Shown: piece after piece, positions 8,115 to 44,552 of the stretch
Numbering within the stretch: the first letter of the stretch is position 1
Layout of the letters: each line of letters starts with the position of its first letter
Source of the DNA: Nakamurella leprariae
GTDB taxonomy: Bacteria; Actinomycetota; Actinomycetes; Mycobacteriales; Nakamurellaceae
NCBI RefSeq assembly: GCF_016918035.1
Contig: NZ_JAERWK010000023.1
Span: 124,001-188,000 of the forward strand
Direction of reading: 5' to 3'
Length of the DNA stretch: 64,000 nt
Notes under the pieces: generated by a model
What the model was told of the DNA's origin: nothing
Database searches by the model: none
What the model saw: the letters and a program-made list of their open reading frames with translations, nothing else
Translations under genes and position numbers: made by a program

Positions 8115-9365
8115 TCAGCGGCGCCGGTCGGTGCCGCGGGGGTCGTCGGCCGGTGGGGCGCCGCCGTAGCCGGGCAGTGACACCTCGATCGACGGCATCG
8201 ACGGCATCGACGGCACCGACGGCACGGTCCGGGTCTCCGGGTCCGGCACGGCCGGCACGATCACGACGGTGCCACCCTGCCGAGGGCTCTCGGCCGGCGG
8301 TGCCGCTGGGGCCGCGGGCACGGCCGGAGCGGCCGGGGCTGCGGGTGCCGCCGGAGGCGGAGCGGCGGGCGGCTGAGCAGAGGAGGCGGTCGGACGTCGC
8401 TCGACGTTCCGGCCCTCGGTCAGCTCGGGCGGTGCCGCATTCGGCGCCGGCTCCGGTGCGACCGGGGCCTCGGTCCGCGGAGTGCGCGACCGCGGCGACG
8501 GAGCAGCCTCGGCGGGGCGGGCGGGTGCGGCGGACGGCGGCGCCGGAGCGGGAGCCGCTGGCGGGACAGCGGCGGCGTCCGTGACCGGGACGGCCGCGGA
8601 CGCCACCGGGGCCTGAGCCGGATCCGCGGACGTCACCTCGGATGACACCGCCGACGGCACCGCCGTGGTCGCGGCGGCCACCTGCTCGGTGGTGGGTGCC
8701 ACCACCTGCACCGAGCGCACCGCGGTGGCCGAGGTCGGCGGTGCCGTGGTCGACGACGGGACATCCACACCCGCCGGATCCACGGCGCCACCGGTCACCT
8801 CGAAGGTGATGACCACGCCGGTCACGACCACGGCCGCGGCGCCCACCACCGCGGCGAGCGTGCGACGACGGCCGGGCGGGCGTCCGGACGACGCGGGCGG
8901 CGGGCTGGTGGGCATGGACGGCAGCTCGGCGGACGGGTCGACGGGTGGTTCCTCCTCGGCCGGCCCGAGCAGTTCGGTGGTCAGGTCGGGCCATTGGGTC
9001 TCGGCCGCGGAGATGGGCGCCACGGGCACGACCGAGGGGTTCGCGACCGGCCGCCTGACCGCAGCCGGACCCGGTGCCGCACCGCCGGTTCGGATCGGGG
9101 CAGACCGGGGGTGTGGGAGCGTCGAACGCATCGTGACGCCCTGCGCCGCGTCGGCGGTGCGGTACTCCTCGAGCAACGCGGTCAGGGCCGCGGACCGGCT
9201 GAACCCGGAGGGTGGGACCGAGGTGGCTGCCTCGGCCCGGACGTCGGGCCCGGGCGTGCCGGCGGCGTGCCGTCCGCCCGACTCACCGTGATCGGCTGCT
9301 GTGCTTCCGCTCCCGTCGTCCGGCGCAGCGTGCAGACCGACCGACCGCGACTCTCGCGTGACCAC
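8115..9365 (-). CDS. Pro/Ala-rich single-pass membrane protein of unknown function
   Basis: I do not recognise this 416-aa protein. The N-terminal 160 or so residues are polar and low-complexity, with one better-structured patch near the start (RSAALTALLEEYRTADAAQG). One membrane span, LAAVVGAAAVVVTGVVITF, sits near the middle after a basic RRR stretch, so the C-terminal half is probably outside the cell. That half is very rich in Ala, Pro, Val and Thr and ends with repeated PSVPSMPSMPSIEV. The frame is open to a GTG at 9434, but the GTG at 9365 has GAGGGG with 6-nt spacing and is preferred. The gene converges on the 5'-nucleotidase terminator and diverges from the CPBP protease. A wall-spanning or regulatory role is only a guess. 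Confidence 0.65.
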   Translation of the reverse strand: MVTRESRSVGLHAAPDDGSGSTAADHGESGGRHAAGTPGPDVRAEAATSVPPSGFSRSAALTALLEEYRTADAAQGVTMRSTLPHPRSAPIRTGGAAPGPAAVRRPVANPSVVPVAPISAAETQWPDLTTELLGPAEEEPPVDPSAELPSMPTSPPPASSGRPPGRRRTLAAVVGAAAVVVTGVVITFEVTGGAVDPAGVDVPSSTTAPPTSATAVRSVQVVAPTTEQVAAATTAVPSAVSSEVTSADPAQAPVASAAVPVTDAAAVPPAAPAPAPPSAAPARPAEAAPSPRSRTPRTEAPVAPEPAPNAAPPELTEGRNVERRPTASSAQPPAAPPPAAPAAPAAPAVPAAPAAPPAESPRQGGTVVIVPAVPDPETRTVPSVPSMPSMPSIEVSLPGYGGAPPADDPRGTDRRR

Positions 9366-9750
9366 TGCTGACCCCCTCGTGCTGGATGGGGTTGTTGGTC
9401 CGGCCGTCACGTGCGGCCGGCGATCACTTCGCACCCCCCGACGCGCGGCAACCCCACTCGGCCCCAGCCTTTCACCTGATCGGACGTCGTGTCGAGCTTC
9501 GATATGGCAACTTCATGGCGTAGGGGCATCGTTGATCGTGTGGTGTACCACCGGATCTCGGTCGGGTCGCCGCACCGGGCGGTGCCGTCGCCGCTGAACA
9601 GCGACGACGGCCGACCACCCGGCACGGTCGGTGATCATCAGGTGCCTGGGTCGGCACGGTGCTTCGCCCGAGCCGAAGCCCTGCGACCATGGTCGCCAGG
9701 TCCACCGACCGACGGCGGACGTGCGGCGGATGTGCAAGAAGGACGTGCCC
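9366..9750. other. Divergent intergenic region
   Basis: About 385 bases lie between the minus-strand Pro/Ala-rich protein and the plus-strand CPBP protease, so promoters for both should lie here. Part of the stretch could extend the reading frame of the minus-strand gene if the GTG at 9434 is used. I see no RNA gene or clear operator. Confidence 0.45.
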
Positions 9751-10821
9751 ATGTCGGAGTCCGGCCCGATCGACCAGCCCCGCGCGGCCGCAGCATCCAC
9801 CGCCGGACTCGGTGACCCACCGCGGCCGGACCCCTGGATGCCCCCGCCCGCCCGCGCCGGTCAGCCACCCGGCGGACCGGGTCAGCCGCCGGCCGGAGCC
9901 GACCAGCCGACCGCCCCGCCGATCACCGAGCCGATCCACCTGCCGATCCCGCTGTCGATCCAACTGTCGATCCCACTGTCGATCCCGCAGCCGAGCCCAG
10001 TGCCCGCCGCCGGGGACCGACCGGCCGACCGGCAGCGGCCCGGGTCCGACCCGGCGCCCCAGTCCCTACCGCCGTCCGCACCGCAGCGCACCGGCTGGTC
10101 GTTGCGGGACGTGCTGGCCGCGTTCGGCGTCATCCTGCTGGTCACCACCGGCGTGCAGACGGTGCTGCAGCTCAGCGACGTCCGGTCCGTCTCGTCGGTC
10201 AGCGTCACCCTGGTGTTCGGGGTGCTGCCCATCTGGATCGGGCTGGTCGGCACCTGCTGGTGGGCGGTCCGGGCGCACGGCACCGGCAGCTTCGCCCGGG
10301 ATCTCGGGCTGCGGTTCCGGTGGATCGACCTGGCCGTCGGACTGGGGCTCGGGGTGGGGCTGCGGGTGGCGGCGGTCGTGATCACGCTGCTCGTCCAGGG
10401 CGTCACCGCCAGCCGACCGAGTGGGAACGTGCCGTTCTCCGGGCAGGCGGGCGGCAACCCGATGCTCATCGCGCTGCTGGTGCTGTTCGTCGGGCTGCTG
10501 GGCCCGCTCATCGAGGAGGTCTTCTTCCGCGGACTCGGGTTGCGGTCGGCGCTGGCCACCCTGCAACGGGCCGACGCCCGCCGCGGCCGCCGGCCGCGGG
10601 ACCGGCGCATGGCGGCCGTGTGGATCACCTCGTCGCTGTTCGCGTTCCTGCACTTCCCAGAGGTCACCGACGTGGTCTCGCTCGTCACCCTGGCTCCGAC
10701 CCTGCTGCTGGGCGGCGTCGCGTTCGGGCTGGTGTCGATGCACTACCGGCGGATCGGCCCGGCCATCGTCGGCCACGTCGTGTTCAACGCCACCGCGCTG
10801 CTGCCGCTCGCCTTCGCCTGA
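9751..10821 (+). CDS. CPBP-family intramembrane metalloprotease
   Basis: This is a predicted membrane-embedded protease of the CPBP/Abi family (356 aa). The N-terminal 110 residues are a cytoplasmic Pro-rich segment with short repeats of PxxIPLSI type. Several transmembrane helices follow. The family's active-site motifs are present: EEVFFRG (Glu255, Glu256, Arg260), then FAFLHF, then HVVFNA near the C-terminus. The Glu and His residues coordinate the catalytic zinc in characterised relatives. The start ATG has AGAAGGA eight bases upstream. Longer in-frame starts lack such a site. Substrates cannot be predicted. Relatives act in prenyl-protein-like processing, bacteriocin immunity or anti-sigma cleavage. 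Confidence 0.88.
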   Translation: MSESGPIDQPRAAAASTAGLGDPPRPDPWMPPPARAGQPPGGPGQPPAGADQPTAPPITEPIHLPIPLSIQLSIPLSIPQPSPVPAAGDRPADRQRPGSDPAPQSLPPSAPQRTGWSLRDVLAAFGVILLVTTGVQTVLQLSDVRSVSSVSVTLVFGVLPIWIGLVGTCWWAVRAHGTGSFARDLGLRFRWIDLAVGLGLGVGLRVAAVVITLLVQGVTASRPSGNVPFSGQAGGNPMLIALLVLFVGLLGPLIEEVFFRGLGLRSALATLQRADARRGRRPRDRRMAAVWITSSLFAFLHFPEVTDVVSLVTLAPTLLLGGVAFGLVSMHYRRIGPAIVGHVVFNATALLPLAFA

Positions 10822-30128: not shown

Positions 30129-30989
30129 TCACCTGTCCGAGAACTGATCGCCCGCCCGAGAGTCGAAGTACGTGAGCATTTCTCGGAGATTGGTGGCCAC
30201 CAGAGGCAGGGCGAATCCCGTTCGCCTGCAGTACTCGCGAACCAACGGCGAGCTGAAACGGAGGTGGTCCCGGGCATCCTGACTGCTGAGCATGCCGCCG
30301 ATGTCCGCCGAGGCCAGGACGTAGTGAGCCAAGTCGAGACCGGGCTGCAAGGCCCGGGCCCGCTCCCAGTCGATGAGCCAGGTGCGTTCGCCGTGCAACA
30401 GGTTCCAGGGAGCCAAGTCACCGTGGGTGATTCCGCTGTCGTCGACTCGCGCCAGCTCAACGGACACCGCCAGTGCCTCGTCCAGGTCGAAATGCACGGA
30501 ACCATGGACATCTGCGACGCGCTCCATGTCGAACGCCGACCACGTCCGTCCTTCACTGAGTCTGTTGACGATCGGTACTGAGAACAGCCCGGAGTGATCC
30601 GCGAGTCGGCGCAGCGTTCGGTACTCCTCGCGGATCCGGGCACGCTGGTCCTGCATGCCGATCTTGGCGATGACGCCCTGCGTGTCGTCCGTGTCGATCG
30701 CGATGACCCATTGCTGGCGGTCGGGGGAGCGCATCACCGCGCACCCCCGTGGGCGCACCCCGAGCGCGGCGATGACCTCGTCAAGTTCGAACGGGAAGCC
30801 ACTCGCCCGTTTGCCTCGAAGGCGCAGGGCCGTCGAGATGGCCAAGGCGACCTGGCCGCGCAACTTGGACGGCCGGTACAACCACGTCGCGATGGCACCG
30901 GAACCGGAGGCCGCCAGTTCCAGGCGCCCGGGGGTGAGCGGGACCGAGCGGAGGGTGACCAGTGGTCGGGAGGTCGATGGCGGACTCAT
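30129..30989 (-). CDS. Phosphotransferase/protein-kinase-like enzyme in the exopolysaccharide locus
   Basis: This 286-aa protein has the catalytic signatures of the aminoglycoside-phosphotransferase/choline-kinase fold: THGDLAPWNLLHGE near residue 189 (catalytic Asp and the Mg-binding Asn) and LIDWERARAL about 15 residues later (metal-binding Asp). An N-lobe lysine may be in GVIAKIG near 107. In this setting it may phosphorylate a sugar or a lipid-linked intermediate rather than an antibiotic, as with other kinase-fold enzymes in glycan clusters. It is the last gene of a tightly overlapping minus-strand run, with its start overlapping the previous stop by 1 nt. Confidence 0.75.
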   Translation of the reverse strand: MSPPSTSRPLVTLRSVPLTPGRLELAASGSGAIATWLYRPSKLRGQVALAISTALRLRGKRASGFPFELDEVIAALGVRPRGCAVMRSPDRQQWVIAIDTDDTQGVIAKIGMQDQRARIREEYRTLRRLADHSGLFSVPIVNRLSEGRTWSAFDMERVADVHGSVHFDLDEALAVSVELARVDDSGITHGDLAPWNLLHGERTWLIDWERARALQPGLDLAHYVLASADIGGMLSSQDARDHLRFSSPLVREYCRRTGFALPLVATNLREMLTYFDSRAGDQFSDR

Positions 30990-31786
30990 CAGACCGACTT
31001 CCGCGCAGCCAAGCTGAAGGCCGCCCGGTCGATCGGTTCCATCAGCAGTTCCGCGATGCGTCGGGTCGGGCGGCCGTAGTCCTCGCCTCGCGTGCCGGAG
31101 ACCCCCCTCAATCGGGGACGCTCGGCGAAGCGGTTGACTCGGACCTGGCGGACCGCGCTGGCATGCATGAGCCGCGCGGCCAGGACGTTGCCCAGATCCG
31201 TTCCGCGCGCCTCGTCCACCTCGTCACACATTCCTGACAGGTCGCGCGCCCAGATCGCTCGGGAGGCTCCGACGACCCGCATGTCGAAGCGTGACCGATC
31301 GAGCAGACCGCGCGCCACGACCGTCCGCTCGGGGAGTTCGGTGATCACGCGATCGGCATTGGCGATGGTCAGACGGCCGGTGATCTTGTACATGGCCGTC
31401 GTGTCGTCGGTCAGGAGTCCTACCGTTCGATCGATCATCTCAGCCTCGATCGCGCCTTTTCCGCGCATCAGTGCCGTCTCTGTCGGAGTGACGTCGATCC
31501 AGGTGATCTCGTTGCAACCGGATTCACTGAATGCCTCGAGGAAGCAGTCCGGAGGCGTCCCCGAGGACTCCGTGACCACGATCCGGGCGCCGGTCCGCTG
31601 AGCGAACTCACCCCAGAACCGGAAGGAATCCAAGTACTGCGTGCGCCGTGCCTCCGCGTCACTCAGTGCCACCGACACGCCAGAGTTCGGCTGCACCGCT
31701 GCCGTCAACAGCACCACGACGTTCGTGCGCAGATCTTGCGGTCCTTCTGATCTCCGGTGCCGGAGACGGTCCGTCGACGGCCTCAT
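30989..31786 (-). CDS. Unknown cytoplasmic protein, possible glycosyltransferase
   Basis: I do not recognise this 265-aa protein with confidence. It opens with a strand and loop like those of nucleotide-sugar enzymes (NVVVLLTAAVQPN) and contains ARIVVTESS, KGAIEAEMIDRTV and YKITGRLTIAN. The last motif recurs in uncharacterised proteins of surface-polysaccharide clusters. No signal peptide or membrane span is present. Its start overlaps the upstream glycosyltransferase stop by 4 nt (ATGA), so it is co-translated with transferase genes. A glycosyltransferase role is inferred from context only. Confidence 0.6.
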   Translation of the reverse strand: MRPSTDRLRHRRSEGPQDLRTNVVVLLTAAVQPNSGVSVALSDAEARRTQYLDSFRFWGEFAQRTGARIVVTESSGTPPDCFLEAFSESGCNEITWIDVTPTETALMRGKGAIEAEMIDRTVGLLTDDTTAMYKITGRLTIANADRVITELPERTVVARGLLDRSRFDMRVVGASRAIWARDLSGMCDEVDEARGTDLGNVLAARLMHASAVRQVRVNRFAERPRLRGVSGTRGEDYGRPTRRIAELLMEPIDRAAFSLAARKSV

Positions 31787-40179: not shown

Positions 40180-40811
40180 TCAGCTCGTGGCCAGGACCGA
40201 GTCCATCGCCGCGATCACCGCGTCGGCGAGCACCCGATGCCCGGCCTCATCGGCCACGGCACCGTCACCACTGATCAGCTCGGTCCGCCGGGACAGCGGC
40301 TCCTCGGTGTCCAGGAGCGCGATGTTCGCGGCCGCGGCGGCGCTTCGGATGATGTCCGTCATGGCCGCGAAGTCCGCCGGCAGTTCGTGGTCGTCCCACC
40401 ACGGATTGATGATCACGACGAACGCGCCGGATGCCGAGCTGGTGATGATGTCGAGGGTGGCCTCGACTCGGCCCGGAACCGCGCGGGATCGTCCTCGAAG
40501 AACGGCAGGTTGCCGTCCGCCGCGTTGGTGCAGCCGACGTCGCCCGCCCCCAGGGTCTCCGGCGCCCGTCCCTTGGCCGCGGCCACCTGCTGCACCCACG
40601 GGCTTGGACCTGCCGTGGAGGCATCGCCGATGAAGACCGCCGGCAGGGGCTGGGTCTCGGTCGGAATGGTCGGCGAGCTCTTCGACGTCCGGCACGGCGG
40701 TCGGTCTGGGCCCACCACCACCGCACACACCACGATCGTTGCGGCAGCAAGGATCATCGACGCGCCGTAGCCGCCCTGCTTCCCCTGAACGGGGCGTGGA
40801 CGGAACCTCAT
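40180..40811 (-). pseudogene. Decayed SGNH-hydrolase-like gene (tandem paralogue)
   Basis: This is a broken copy of the neighbouring gene at 40868-41677. Reading one frame from the ATG at 40811 gives a membrane span (ILAAATIVVCAVVV), then AVFIGDAST and DDPARFRAE. At about 40467 the homology jumps by one base to another frame (VEATLDIITSSASGAF, VVIINPWWDDHELP, ending VLATS). Near 40690-40720 the paralogue's RPTAVPNVDEL is recognisable only out of frame (RPTAVPDVEEL), so a compensated pair of indels also occurred. About 25 residues containing the GGGND block are missing. The canonical nucleophile Ser and C-terminal catalytic His are absent as well. This is a pseudogene unless there are several sequence errors. 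Confidence 0.85.
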
Positions 40812-40867: not shown

Positions 40868-41677
40868 TCAGAGCGGAGCCCCCACGGACTCGATCGCCAG
40901 ATGAACGGCAGCGGCCAGCGCTGCCTGACCCTGCTCGTTGGGACGGATGCTGTCCGCGTCGACGAGATCCGACCGACCGACCAGTGGCTGCCCGGTGTCC
41001 AGGTAGGTGGCGCCGGCGGCGACGGCCGCGGCGCGGACCGTGTCCGACAGCGCGACGAACGTCTGCGGGACGGGGTCGTCGTCCCACCACGGATTCACCA
41101 CGATCACCGTGGCGTCCGGTGCCCGGCGCCCGATCTCGCTGAGGGTGGCGGCAACGTCGGCCTGGAACGTCGCCGGATCGCGAACGAAGATGCTCAGGTC
41201 GTTGCCGCCGCCGGCCACCATCACGATGTCGGTGCCGTCGGGGATGCCGGCTGCTTGCCCCGCGTACGCCGGCGTCCCGGCGGGGGCGTTGCTGTAGCCG
41301 GCCCGGGCGGCGGCCAGCACCGTCGGCGTCCAGCCCTCGGACGCCGCCACGAGCGCGGCCCACGAATCCGGGGCGGCCGTGTAGCCGTCACCGATGAACA
41401 CGACCCGCTGCATCTCCGGTCGAGCCGGCGTCGAAGACGCGCTGGACGATCCGATCAGCGGTGCGACCGTGGTCGCCGGTGACGACGACGACTGCGCCGC
41501 CGCGATCCGGGATGCCGCCGCTGCGTTCAACTCGTCGACGTTCGGCACCGCGGTCGGGCGGGTGAGCACGACGACCGAGGCGACGATCGTCCCGACGGTC
41601 AGTGCCGCCAACGCCGCGTACCCGACGGCGCTGCGCCGCCTGTCCCGGCTGTCTCCAGACCTCACAGGCCCCAGCAT
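40868..41677 (-). CDS. SGNH-fold membrane-anchored protein lacking catalytic residues
   Basis: This 269-aa protein has one N-terminal membrane anchor (AALAALTVGTIVASVVVL), a Ser/Ala-rich stalk, and an external SGNH/GDSL-hydrolase-like domain. Block I reads VVFIGDGYTAAP (residues 93-104), so the nucleophile position normally held by Ser is Gly98. Block III is intact (GGGNDLS). The block V position usually reading DxxHP is DSIRPNEQG, with Arg in place of His. Both residues essential for catalysis in the family are therefore changed. A binding or structural role in glycan modification is possible. It lies beside the end of the first polysaccharide locus, and its decayed duplicate is 56 bases downstream. 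Confidence 0.75.
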   Translation of the reverse strand: MLGPVRSGDSRDRRRSAVGYAALAALTVGTIVASVVVLTRPTAVPNVDELNAAAASRIAAAQSSSSPATTVAPLIGSSSASSTPARPEMQRVVFIGDGYTAAPDSWAALVAASEGWTPTVLAAARAGYSNAPAGTPAYAGQAAGIPDGTDIVMVAGGGNDLSIFVRDPATFQADVAATLSEIGRRAPDATVIVVNPWWDDDPVPQTFVALSDTVRAAAVAAGATYLDTGQPLVGRSDLVDADSIRPNEQGQAALAAAVHLAIESVGAPL

Positions 41678-42177: not shown

Positions 42178-42188
42178 ATGACCGCTGA
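42036..42188 (+). CDS. Possible 50-aa Cys/Arg-rich peptide overlapping the RiPP precursor start
   Basis: This is a tentative small gene. GAGAGGAA lies 6 bases before the GTG, and third positions are strongly G/C. The peptide contains four cysteines (TPCVVG, SPSCRS, WRCRAV, SECRHD) and ends eight bases inside the precursor gene. Arg, Cys and Trp richness is also what a shadow frame of high-GC DNA produces, so it may be spurious. If real, it would be coupled to the precursor gene. Confidence 0.25.
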   Translation: MLQRRGVPGRWTPCVVGASPSCRSRAARHIALPWRCRAVQRLASECRHDR

Positions 42189-42360
42189 GCGCTCCTGGCC
42201 CACCACATCCTCGTCACGGCCGCCGGTCCAGGACTACGAGCCGCCGCAGCTGCGCCGGCTGGGCTCGCTCGGGCCTGCCCGCGGCGCCGAGTCGTCCGCC
42301 GGCCGCCCTCGTGCCGACCGAGCCGACCGAGCGAATCGATCCATCGGGACGCCGGCATGA
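42178..42360 (+). CDS. Putative lasso-like RiPP precursor peptide
   Basis: This 60-aa peptide is the presumed substrate of the next two genes. GGAG stands 7 bases before the ATG. The leader contains YEPPQLRRLG (residues 20-29), an exact fit to the lasso-peptide leader motif YxxPxLxxxG recognised by PqqD-like B1 proteins. A normal lasso leader has Thr two residues before the cleavage site, roughly seven residues after that Gly. Here the region reads SLGPARGAES and has no Thr. The C-terminal 25 residues are Ala/Arg/Asp-rich with RADRADRAN. Starting a core at Gly36 puts no Asp or Glu at ring positions 7-9. It is thus lasso-like by leader but not by core. Its stop overlaps the next start (ATGA). 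Confidence 0.72.
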   Translation: MTAERSWPTTSSSRPPVQDYEPPQLRRLGSLGPARGAESSAGRPRADRADRANRSIGTPA

Positions 42361-42719
42361 CCGCCGTCCTGGAGCCGGTGCTGCACGTCTCGTCCACCGT
42401 CGTCGCCTGGCGCACCATCGGCGAGAGCACCGTCCTGCTCGATCTCGCCGCCTCCGCCTACTACGGCCTCAACCGCACGGGCACCCGGCTGTGGTCGCTG
42501 CTCGCCGACGGCGCCACCCACACCGCCCTGGTCGACGCGCTGCTCGAGGTGTCCGACCACCGCATCGACCGGTGCCGGGCCGACGCCGACGTCGTCGCCT
42601 TCCTGGCCGAACTGCGCACCTCCGGGCTGCTCGACCAGGCGCCCGACCAGCCGCACCCGGCCTTCGCGCTCCGCACCGGCATCACCCGGCTCGGCTCCCG
42701 GCTGGGATCCGGGCGATGA
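42357..42719 (+). CDS. PqqD-like RiPP recognition protein (lasso B1/E-type)
   Basis: This 120-aa protein comprises a RiPP recognition element of the PqqD family. The wing and helix pattern is typical: GESTVLLDLAASAYYGLNRTGTRLWSLLADGATHTALVDALLE, followed by a C-terminal helix (DADVVAFLAELRTSGLL). In lasso systems B1 binds the YxxPxLxxxG leader and presents it to the B2 protease. The precursor upstream carries that motif. The gene is coupled at both ends by 4-nt ATGA overlaps. The C-terminal 25 residues (after LLDQAPDQ) extend slightly beyond the usual domain. Confidence 0.88.
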   Translation: MTAVLEPVLHVSSTVVAWRTIGESTVLLDLAASAYYGLNRTGTRLWSLLADGATHTALVDALLEVSDHRIDRCRADADVVAFLAELRTSGLLDQAPDQPHPAFALRTGITRLGSRLGSGR

Positions 42720-44140
42720 CCGACCCCACCGGCCTCGGCACCACCGCGCCGGCGGCGCCGCTGCGTCGCGCGCACCTGTCCCTGGTCCCGACCCCGCCCG
42801 GTCTCTCGCCGGACGCCCTGCCCGCCGCTCCGCTCGCCGGCCGTCGCCGCACCGCGGTGCGCGCCGGGGACTCGCCGCTGCTGGCCGCGGTGACCGACGA
42901 CGCGAGCGACCACGGCGCCGCCGACCTGTTCCGGACCACCGACCCGTGGATCGGCCGCGCCGACCGTCCCGGGCCGGCCGCCACGCCCACGGCACCCGCT
43001 CCCACGCCCACGGTGGCGGCCCGCCACCTGGTGGTCGACGCACTGGCCGCCGGTACCGCCGCGCTGCTCAGCGACGCCGGCGTGGCCGCACTGCTCATCG
43101 GCGGCCCGGTCATCGCCCGGCAGATCCACCACCCGGTCGGGCGGACCCGCGGCTACGCCGCCGTCGACCTGCTCGTGCATCCCGCCGCCGTCCCGGCCGC
43201 CACCGATGCGTTGCGCGACCACGGCTACCGGCCGGAGGGACTGGACCTCACCGGCCCCACCGGCCCCACCGGCTGCCACCGCTGGCGCTCGCCCGGCTCC
43301 GGCGCCATCACCGTGCGGCTGCACTCCCTTCCTGCCGGGGTCGACCGCCCGGCCGGACTCTTCCGGGAGCTGTGGGAGGAGCGGGCCATGCTGGTGTTCG
43401 CCGGCGCCGAGGCGCCCGCGCCGTCGGCCCGCGGCATCGCCCTGCTCGTCGCCCTGGCCGCCGGCCGGGGTCCGACCGCGCCGCGCTCCGGCCGGCAGGA
43501 CCTGGCCCAGGCCGTGCAGACATTCGGACCCGACACCTGGCTGCGCGCTGCCGATCTGGCCCGTACCTGCCGGGCCCAGGAGGCGTTCCGGGCCGGGCTC
43601 GATACCCTGCGCACCCCATCGGCCGCCCCCCGCATCGCGGCCACACCGGCCACCCGGCCCGGTCCGTCGTTGCCCGCCGCCGCCCGCGCCATGATCCGTG
43701 GCGTCCGGAACGCCGGCGAACGGCGGGGTGCGGGGCCGCGTCCGGCCGCTGCCGGCTGGGCCGTCGCCGCGCTGCTCTCCGCGCGCCGCCAGCTCACCAC
43801 CGCGGGCGTCACCGACGTGGAACTGCCGGCGCCGCCGCAGGTCCGGGCGGCCGATCGCTCGGCCGTGGTGGCCACGCTGGACGAGCAGCGCGCCACCTGC
43901 CTGGAGCGGTCGCTGGTGCTCCAGCGGTTCGACGCCGACGGTGGCCGTCCCCGGGAGCTCGTCGTCGCGGTCACCGACCCGGGTCCGGACCGCACGCCCG
44001 GCTGCGCCGCCGCCGACGGCGACCCGGTGGGGGCGGTGCACGCGCACGCCTGGCTCGAAGGAGACACCGCCCCCCAGGCCGGGTTCCGCGAGCTGCTGCG
44101 GTCGCCGGCGCCGGGCGCGTTGCCCGCGGGGCAACGCTGA
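42716..44140 (+). CDS. Fusion of nucleotidyltransferase-like domain and lasso B2-type leader protease
   Basis: This 474-aa two-domain protein follows B1 with a 4-nt overlap. Residues about 100-290 match the uncharacterised nucleotidyltransferase family found in several lasso clusters: VAALLIGGPVIAR near 123-135 and RGYAAVDLLVHP near 145-156. In most relatives the last block is D-x-D; here the first Asp is Ala149 and only Asp151 remains. Residues about 330-474 match the B2 transglutaminase-like cysteine protease, with the catalytic Cys395 in RATCLERSLVLQR and His444 in VHAHAWLEGD. The B2 part should cut the precursor leader. The other half may modify the peptide or merely bind. No lasso cyclase (asparagine-synthetase-like) and no exporter are encoded nearby. 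Confidence 0.85.
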   Translation: MTDPTGLGTTAPAAPLRRAHLSLVPTPPGLSPDALPAAPLAGRRRTAVRAGDSPLLAAVTDDASDHGAADLFRTTDPWIGRADRPGPAATPTAPAPTPTVAARHLVVDALAAGTAALLSDAGVAALLIGGPVIARQIHHPVGRTRGYAAVDLLVHPAAVPAATDALRDHGYRPEGLDLTGPTGPTGCHRWRSPGSGAITVRLHSLPAGVDRPAGLFRELWEERAMLVFAGAEAPAPSARGIALLVALAAGRGPTAPRSGRQDLAQAVQTFGPDTWLRAADLARTCRAQEAFRAGLDTLRTPSAAPRIAATPATRPGPSLPAAARAMIRGVRNAGERRGAGPRPAAAGWAVAALLSARRQLTTAGVTDVELPAPPQVRAADRSAVVATLDEQRATCLERSLVLQRFDADGGRPRELVVAVTDPGPDRTPGCAAADGDPVGAVHAHAWLEGDTAPQAGFRELLRSPAPGALPAGQR

Positions 44141-44552
44141 GCGTCCCTCCGATCAGTCTCCGGGCCGGAACCCGAACCGGATGAACGGATCGAGGATCTG
44201 ACGCTGCCGTGGATCGGCGTCAACCCCACTGCTCGTGCAGATCGAGAGCGTGTGGCGGGGGCCGAGAGCTGGCTGAGTGAGGCCCGACGGCCGTGCGGGT
44301 CATCGCCACGGACCGCCATGTCACGGGCAGTCCGTGGCGGCCGATCGGGGGCGGAGCTGCCCACCGTCTCGGAGCACGGTGACCCCGGGTCGGCCCCGCG
44401 GGCACCGGACCGGTGGGAACCGGCCCGGTTCGGGTGATCCGTCCGAATCGTCCTCCCCGAACCGACGACCGCCGGGCACCCTGGAGGGGACCGTTCGGCG
44501 CCGATGACGCCGCCGACCTCGTCCCGGTCGTCCTGGGGAGACGGAGACAGCC
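44141..44552. other. Intergenic region after the RiPP operon
   Basis: These 412 bases lie between the B2 fusion gene and the CAP-domain gene. No open frame looks real, and I find no trace of an asparagine-synthetase-like cyclase. The region contains one hairpin (44304-44339) and, presumably, the promoter of the CAP gene. Confidence 0.5.
44304..44339 (+). terminator. Possible terminator of the RiPP operon
   Basis: Arms cgccacggac (44304-44313) and gtccgtggcg (44330-44339) give a perfect 10-bp stem with a 16-nt loop, about 165 bases beyond the RiPP operon. The distance and the absence of a U tract make this only a candidate. Confidence 0.4.

Follow-up and report, generated by a model that had tools for sequence, protein, structure and literature searches.

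The three coupled genes at 42178-44140 on the forward strand of the window (the whole 64,000-nucleotide stretch of Nakamurella leprariae DNA that was analysed) probably represent a lasso peptide cluster that has been truncated, is degenerating and is unable to make a lasso. They encode a precursor-like peptide (A), a leader-binding protein (B1) and a fusion of a nucleotidyltransferase domain (N) with a leader-peptidase domain (B2). Of the features of a lasso cluster, the YxxPxLxxxG leader, a B1 protein of the RRE/PqqD type and, as judged by sequence, a B2 domain with Cys and His were found; Thr at leader position -2, Asp or Glu at core positions 7-9 and an asparagine-synthetase-like cyclase (C) were not, and therefore the locus was not classed as a working lasso cluster. 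The first-pass annotation of this DNA had described a lasso-like operon without a cyclase and had proposed a new RiPP class reusing the lasso leader machinery. Its view that no lasso is to be expected is retained, because no cyclase was found genome-wide and A lacks a ring acceptor in the register expected; the new class was not borne out by the related loci described below.

Organization of the locus

Gene A (42178-42360, 60 aa), B1 (42357-42719, 120 aa) and the N-B2 fusion (42716-44140, 474 aa) are all open frames on the forward strand, joined by ATGA overlaps as first described. A GGAG element precedes A, its end lying 7 bases before the ATG, and a scan gave no candidate promoter or terminator. 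The GC3 values of B1 and N-B2 are 0.97 and 0.92, that of A being lower at 0.82; long open frames are frequent on both strands of the window. The set is followed by a gap to the next gene (44141-44552), the position taken by the cyclase in the congener G012, and no remnant was found in it. By inspection, a large exopolysaccharide-like locus adjoins the three genes. Immediately upstream lie two neighbouring similar genes on the reverse strand (40180-40728 and 40868-41677), named by inspection as SGNH-hydrolase-like, with the motif NPWWDD in both.

The leader-binding protein and the nucleotidyltransferase-B2 fusion

The PqqD-like character assigned earlier to B1 was confirmed by its match to PF05402 (E 2.7e-13), the only PqqD match genome-wide. 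B1 keeps all 16 strongly conserved columns, and its mean identity to 15 Micromonosporaceae rows is 42.4%, against 42.1% for the B1 of G012.

The N part of the fusion (43016-43600) matched PF14907 (NTP_transf_5) over the cut-off with an E value of 3.3e-10 and is followed by the B2 part (43676-44137); this tailoring nucleotidyltransferase half is an addition to the earlier description, which had named only B2. The B2 part gave library matches under the cut-offs (PF13471, E 0.12; NF033537, E 0.028) and a match of E 4e-44 to a model built from its relatives, which holds partly by construction since the window sequence was among the inputs of the B1, N and B2 profiles; the B2 domain first proposed was recovered in this way. 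Four weak PF13471 frames occur in the genome, of which the window's alone is B2-like by the profile of the relatives. One of the others, on contig C5, scored E 0.017 with PF13471 against 0.022 for the window B2, and these other frames were rejected with B2-profile E values of at least 0.58, against 8e-45 for the window. A further NTP_transf_5 match on contig C36 was set aside as, by inspection, a nucleotidyltransferase of another kind.

Residues and identities were compared using only N rows of at least 150 aa and B2 rows of at least 90 aa, and loci L036, L037 and L038 were skipped as duplicates of L045, L058 and L055. N belongs to its family by the profile match and has lost most of the conserved Lys and carboxylates, which we take to be the residues of the active-site motif: the Lys kept in 33 of 35 other rows is Gly in the window, the first Asp (34 of 35) is Ala149, and the third Asp/Glu (35 of 35) is Arg201 in place of Asp, the second Asp of the DxD motif being kept both in the window and in 34 of 35 other rows. 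Apart from the window, the first Asp is missing only from an isolated N domain with altered active-site motifs in the congener G004 (L017, 9329-10300), which adjoins a hisS-like gene; no other lasso part was found at this locus, and neither a B1 nor a cyclase match in G004.

Counted over all conserved columns, the window N keeps 25 of 29, with the losses K, D, D and H, and seven of the 35 other N rows keep a smaller share. The window B2 keeps 19 of 22 (losses W to F, G to A and F to V) and ranks seventh of 38 from the bottom. The two domains are therefore equal by column share, and the N losses differ in hitting the active-site motifs. The B2 Cys and His are present in the window (Cys395 and His444, by alignment to relatives) and in all 37 other rows, so that B2 is a candidate leader peptidase whose catalytic residues look intact. 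Just ahead of the active-site His, B2 carries an insertion of 14 residues (43988-44029) not seen in four aligned relatives, and the window fusion is without an extended segment that separates N from B2 in those four.

Mean identity to the Micromonosporaceae rows is 41.5% for the window B2 against 32.4% for that of G012 (n=16), and 35.4% for the window N against 41.0% (n=16). This pattern is consistent with N having lost its function early and the cyclase having disappeared afterwards, or with B1 and B2 having stayed in use. Together with the complete set of conserved columns in B1, the greater closeness of the window B2 to the Micromonosporaceae suggests that selection acted on B1 and B2 until recently, or still does.

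Search for the cyclase, kinase and exporter

With profiles made from relatives, the six frames of the window were found to contain no cyclase, no kinase (K) and no ABC exporter (D) of the Micromonospora type, in agreement with the first report of a missing cyclase and of no adjacent exporter. Possible remnants of C, K and D were at background level, the best E value being 0.056 for D2 (30959-31234) and those for K, C and D1 0.15-0.26. In the whole genome, a draft assembly of 39 contigs and 99% completeness, PF00733 matched two asparagine synthetases and a LarE-like protein (names by inspection). Both synthetases carry an amidotransferase part, at the N-terminus by inspection, and were rejected as lasso cyclases. 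The same model detected two lasso cyclases of relatives at 36.9 and 48.5 bits, the cut-off being 21. The dedicated cyclase profile revealed no lasso cyclase in the genome, with a best E value of 0.005 in the LarE-like frame, and the kinase profile gave a best genome-wide E value of 0.09. The cyclase profile was run on this genome, 11 congeners, six genomes of other genera and eight chosen genomes; the congeners G013-G016 were left out.

Related loci in other genomes

The fusion was matched in seven of 61 genomes at E 1e-3, its own included, one of which was discarded (G016, a weak match with three stops overlying an aldehyde-dehydrogenase-like frame), and in at least nine of 249 genomes of the order at E 1e-5, its own included, with at most six candidates scored per genome. 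In G012 (L016) the genes D1 and D2 of an ABC exporter, B1, an HPr-kinase-like K, an N-B2 fusion and C lie side by side. A scan of public contigs gave 33 loci with related proteins, 16 of them from Micromonospora and several genomes having more than one, and N-B2 fusions were found at six distinct loci besides the window. In the fetched DNA a cyclase is present at 30 of the 33 loci (in five, split over more than one frame piece), the kinase at 28, B1 at 31 and the membrane part of the exporter at 26.

The three loci without a cyclase are L058 (Micromonospora mirobrigensis), L064 (M. lupini) and L060. In M. lupini, B1 and B2 (L064, 10091-10801) are separated by about 1.9 Mb from A, C, K, N and D (L075, 9354-14006). 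The second locus of M. mirobrigensis (L037/L058) has a canonical precursor, B1, N, B2 and an exporter, with no cyclase in about 20 kb, and the cyclase of L045 in that species may serve two precursors. L060 is a lone B2 (9334-9738) in a region of sugar and polysaccharide genes, from a metagenome bin of unstated completeness in which no cyclase was found. A cyclase was found elsewhere in the genomes of M. lupini, M. mirobrigensis and G059. The last of these has only N-B2 at L018 (9018-10430), flanked on one side by the transpeptidase-like and chitinase-like genes that also adjoin the full cluster of G067 (L038, 7854-13539), and its C, B1 and A are located separately, at L042; the pair L018 and L038 likely represents a natural partial deletion.

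None of the loci examined combines the lack of a cyclase with a core like that of A, and no conserved precursor and enzyme set like that of the window recurred in several genomes among the fetched loci; the similar three-gene sets that the first-pass annotation had suggested looking for in related genomes were not encountered there. The presence of cyclases at most related loci, together with precursors of the ordinary lasso type and an N domain lacking conserved catalytic-motif residues, argues against the new RiPP class.

The leader and core of the precursor

As had been noted, A contains the exact YxxPxLxxxG motif, in the form YEPPQLRRLG (residues 20-29, 42235-42264). Among the 508 ORFs in the window with 30 or more residues, gene A alone contains it, and the motif arose in 104 of 200,000 shuffles of the A peptide. 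The match of A to the lasso leader model NF033521 was under the cut-off (E 0.035); with tblastn, A and the L039 precursor are 50% identical across 32 aa (E 7e-5). The leader of A, YEPPQLRRLGSL, may be compared with that of M. sonchi (L049), YEPPRLRRLGTL.

The putative core (42283-42357) begins at Gly36, which is a guess, one residue short of the spacing of the relatives as measured from the conserved Tyr. With this start there is Ala at -2 and no Asp or Glu at 7-9, as first stated; an acid at 7-9 is also absent in the registers adjoining Gly36 and is present in others, e.g. that of Gly42. The comparison comprised 36 precursor ORFs from 34 loci, including near-identical pairs such as L039/L075 and L049/L073, with L036 representing its duplicate L045; a precursor was listed at none of L047, L052, L060, L064 and L067. 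Matches resembling a leader that fell within other genes or away from the clusters had been removed beforehand (L020 10347, L036 6185, L039 13093, L040 9609, L049 11377, L050 15144, L057 14018, L073 9114 and L075 7251). The precursor-like ORFs of L043 and L044, beside PqqD proteins with neither a lasso B2 nor a cyclase, were not counted, and both have Thr at the corresponding place.

All 36 listed precursors have Thr(-2); one of the two search patterns includes this Thr, and 35 of the 36 were found independently of it, that of L058 alone depending on it. Asp or Glu occurs at 7-9 in 30 of the 36, whereas six lack it in the register assumed here. All 17 precursors with an RLGTL or RLDTL leader, to which the RLGSL of A is similar, have such an acid. 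The RADRADRAN tail of A, the conservation of which had been raised together with the new class, is by eye in none of the 36 cores. By eye the closest composition among those listed is that of the L042 precursor of G059 (9701-9856), an Ala/Asp/Arg-rich core with Thr(-2) and Glu8. A simple frameshift behind the lost core was rejected, as neither of the other two frames of A contains a TLAELT-like stretch.

Origin of the locus and alternative explanations

It is proposed that the ancestor was a lasso cluster with the kinase, N fused to B2, B1, the cyclase and the ABC exporter. C, K and D would have been lost, the active-site motifs of N damaged, and A deprived of its cleavage-site Thr(-2) and its ring acceptor; B1 and B2 may still bind the leader, with inefficient cleavage or none, and a lasso would not be formed. 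The anatomy of the set, the genes and residues that are missing or changed, and the complete clusters of the relatives are direct observations; from these we infer a complete ancestor, and decay rather than a new function as the source of the differences. The piecemeal loss suggested by G059 and G067 counts, by analogy, toward decay. Against it stand the open frames with their ATGA coupling (although long open frames are frequent here), the high GC3 of B1 and N-B2, the fully kept conserved columns of B1, the closeness of the window B2 to the Micromonosporaceae, and the N domain, which by conserved-column count is not the worst; moreover, no sister strain showing stages of decay was found.

An unlikely explanation, although one with evidence in its favour, is that of a working minimal device, in which the leader is bound by B1 and cut by B2 to release a linear Arg/Asp-rich peptide, the damaged N serving only as a scaffold for B2. 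The exact leader motif, the retained gene overlaps and the intact B1 and B2 Cys/His, while C and K were not found and N is damaged, are in its favour. It has to account for the lost Thr(-2), given that Ala(-2) stopped cleavage in one phospho-lasso system according to the available text of PMC10368454, for a share of conserved columns in B2 equal to that in N, for an arrangement and core seen in no examined locus, and for a window without an exporter of the relatives' type. Somewhat more doubtful is the further idea that the lasso front end (leader, B1 and B2), having lost the enzymes for ring closure and tailoring, was kept beside the large exopolysaccharide locus as a stand-alone leader cutter, giving a linear RAD-repeat peptide from a changed cleavage site.

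Improbable is the recent capture beside the exopolysaccharide genes of an incomplete cluster fragment that was never functional in this genome. At E 1e-3 the fusion is unmatched in 12 of 16 congeners, and B1 in 14 of 16, as a capture would lead one to expect. The CAP-type neighbour of the set was searched in 11 congeners, and its homologues in G004 and G007 have other surroundings; when these two regions were compared with the window proteins, conserved synteny was rejected, CAP giving a good match and the others weak matches to generic enzymes. However, no mobile element was noticed by inspection next to the three genes, and their GC pattern is similar to that of the neighbouring genes.

A split pathway, with the cyclase provided from elsewhere in the genome, has slightly less chance still of being correct. 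It has precedents in the three genomes with a distant cyclase, among them M. lupini with its separated L064 and L075 and M. mirobrigensis with its second locus, and a draft assembly may contain a gap; yet neither Pfam nor the dedicated profile revealed a lasso cyclase in this genome, and A is without an acceptor in the expected register. Least probable of all is a true core of 19 residues from Gly42, a lasso-like layout closed by another ligase, since for all its Gly1, Asp9 and Ser(-2) this start places the leader Tyr five residues farther from the cut than in the relatives, where 35 of 36 precursors share one spacing (that of L058 being three shorter), and no cyclase was found.

With decay as the preferred explanation, the locus illustrates concretely one way in which a lasso cluster may be dismantled, with the cyclase, kinase, exporter and key core residues missing, N impaired, and B1 and the catalytic residues of B2 retained. 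It also counsels caution, a leader motif with B1 and B2 being no proof of a lasso product. If B1 and B2 were active, the set would be a natural device for cutting leaders without ring closure.

Comparison with known lasso systems

No description of a cyclase-less B1/B2 class was found in the titles and abstract openings of the literature searched. Incomplete lasso clusters have been reported, most of those in one survey proving complete upon manual curation (available text of PMC7533575), and N-B2 fusions are reported in several lasso clusters (PMC8498205, in the part available). As to the residue at -2, Ile and Val are known exceptions to Thr according to the accessible part of PMC10368454; in the BsfA phospho-lasso system, with native Ile(-2), the same text reports that I(-2)A blocked leader removal completely and Thr likewise. 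Since both Ala and Thr block leader removal in BsfA, the residue needed at -2 varies between systems.

The phosphorylated or glycosylated lasso clusters with K and N (paeninodin, pseudomycoidin and BsfA types) share with the window the leader motif and homologues of B1, B2 and N. In contrast to them, C and K were not found in the genome nor D in the window, the N motifs are damaged, and A has neither Thr(-2) nor an in-register acceptor. The K-N-B2-B1-C-D loci of Micromonospora (e.g. L045, L046 and L049) and the locus of G012 have homologous B1, B2 and N, with 42, 42 and 35% mean identity, respectively, over the 15-16 Micromonosporaceae rows, but in them the cyclase is present and the cores carry both Thr(-2) and an acid (Asp/Glu) at 7-9. 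The split or partial loci of M. lupini (L064/L075), M. mirobrigensis (L058) and G059 (L018/L042) differ from the window in having a cyclase elsewhere in the genome and precursors (L075, L058 and L042) with Thr(-2) and an acceptor. Like the window, they contain B1/B2 parts without an adjacent cyclase, and together with it they indicate that B1 and B2 are separable from the cyclase.
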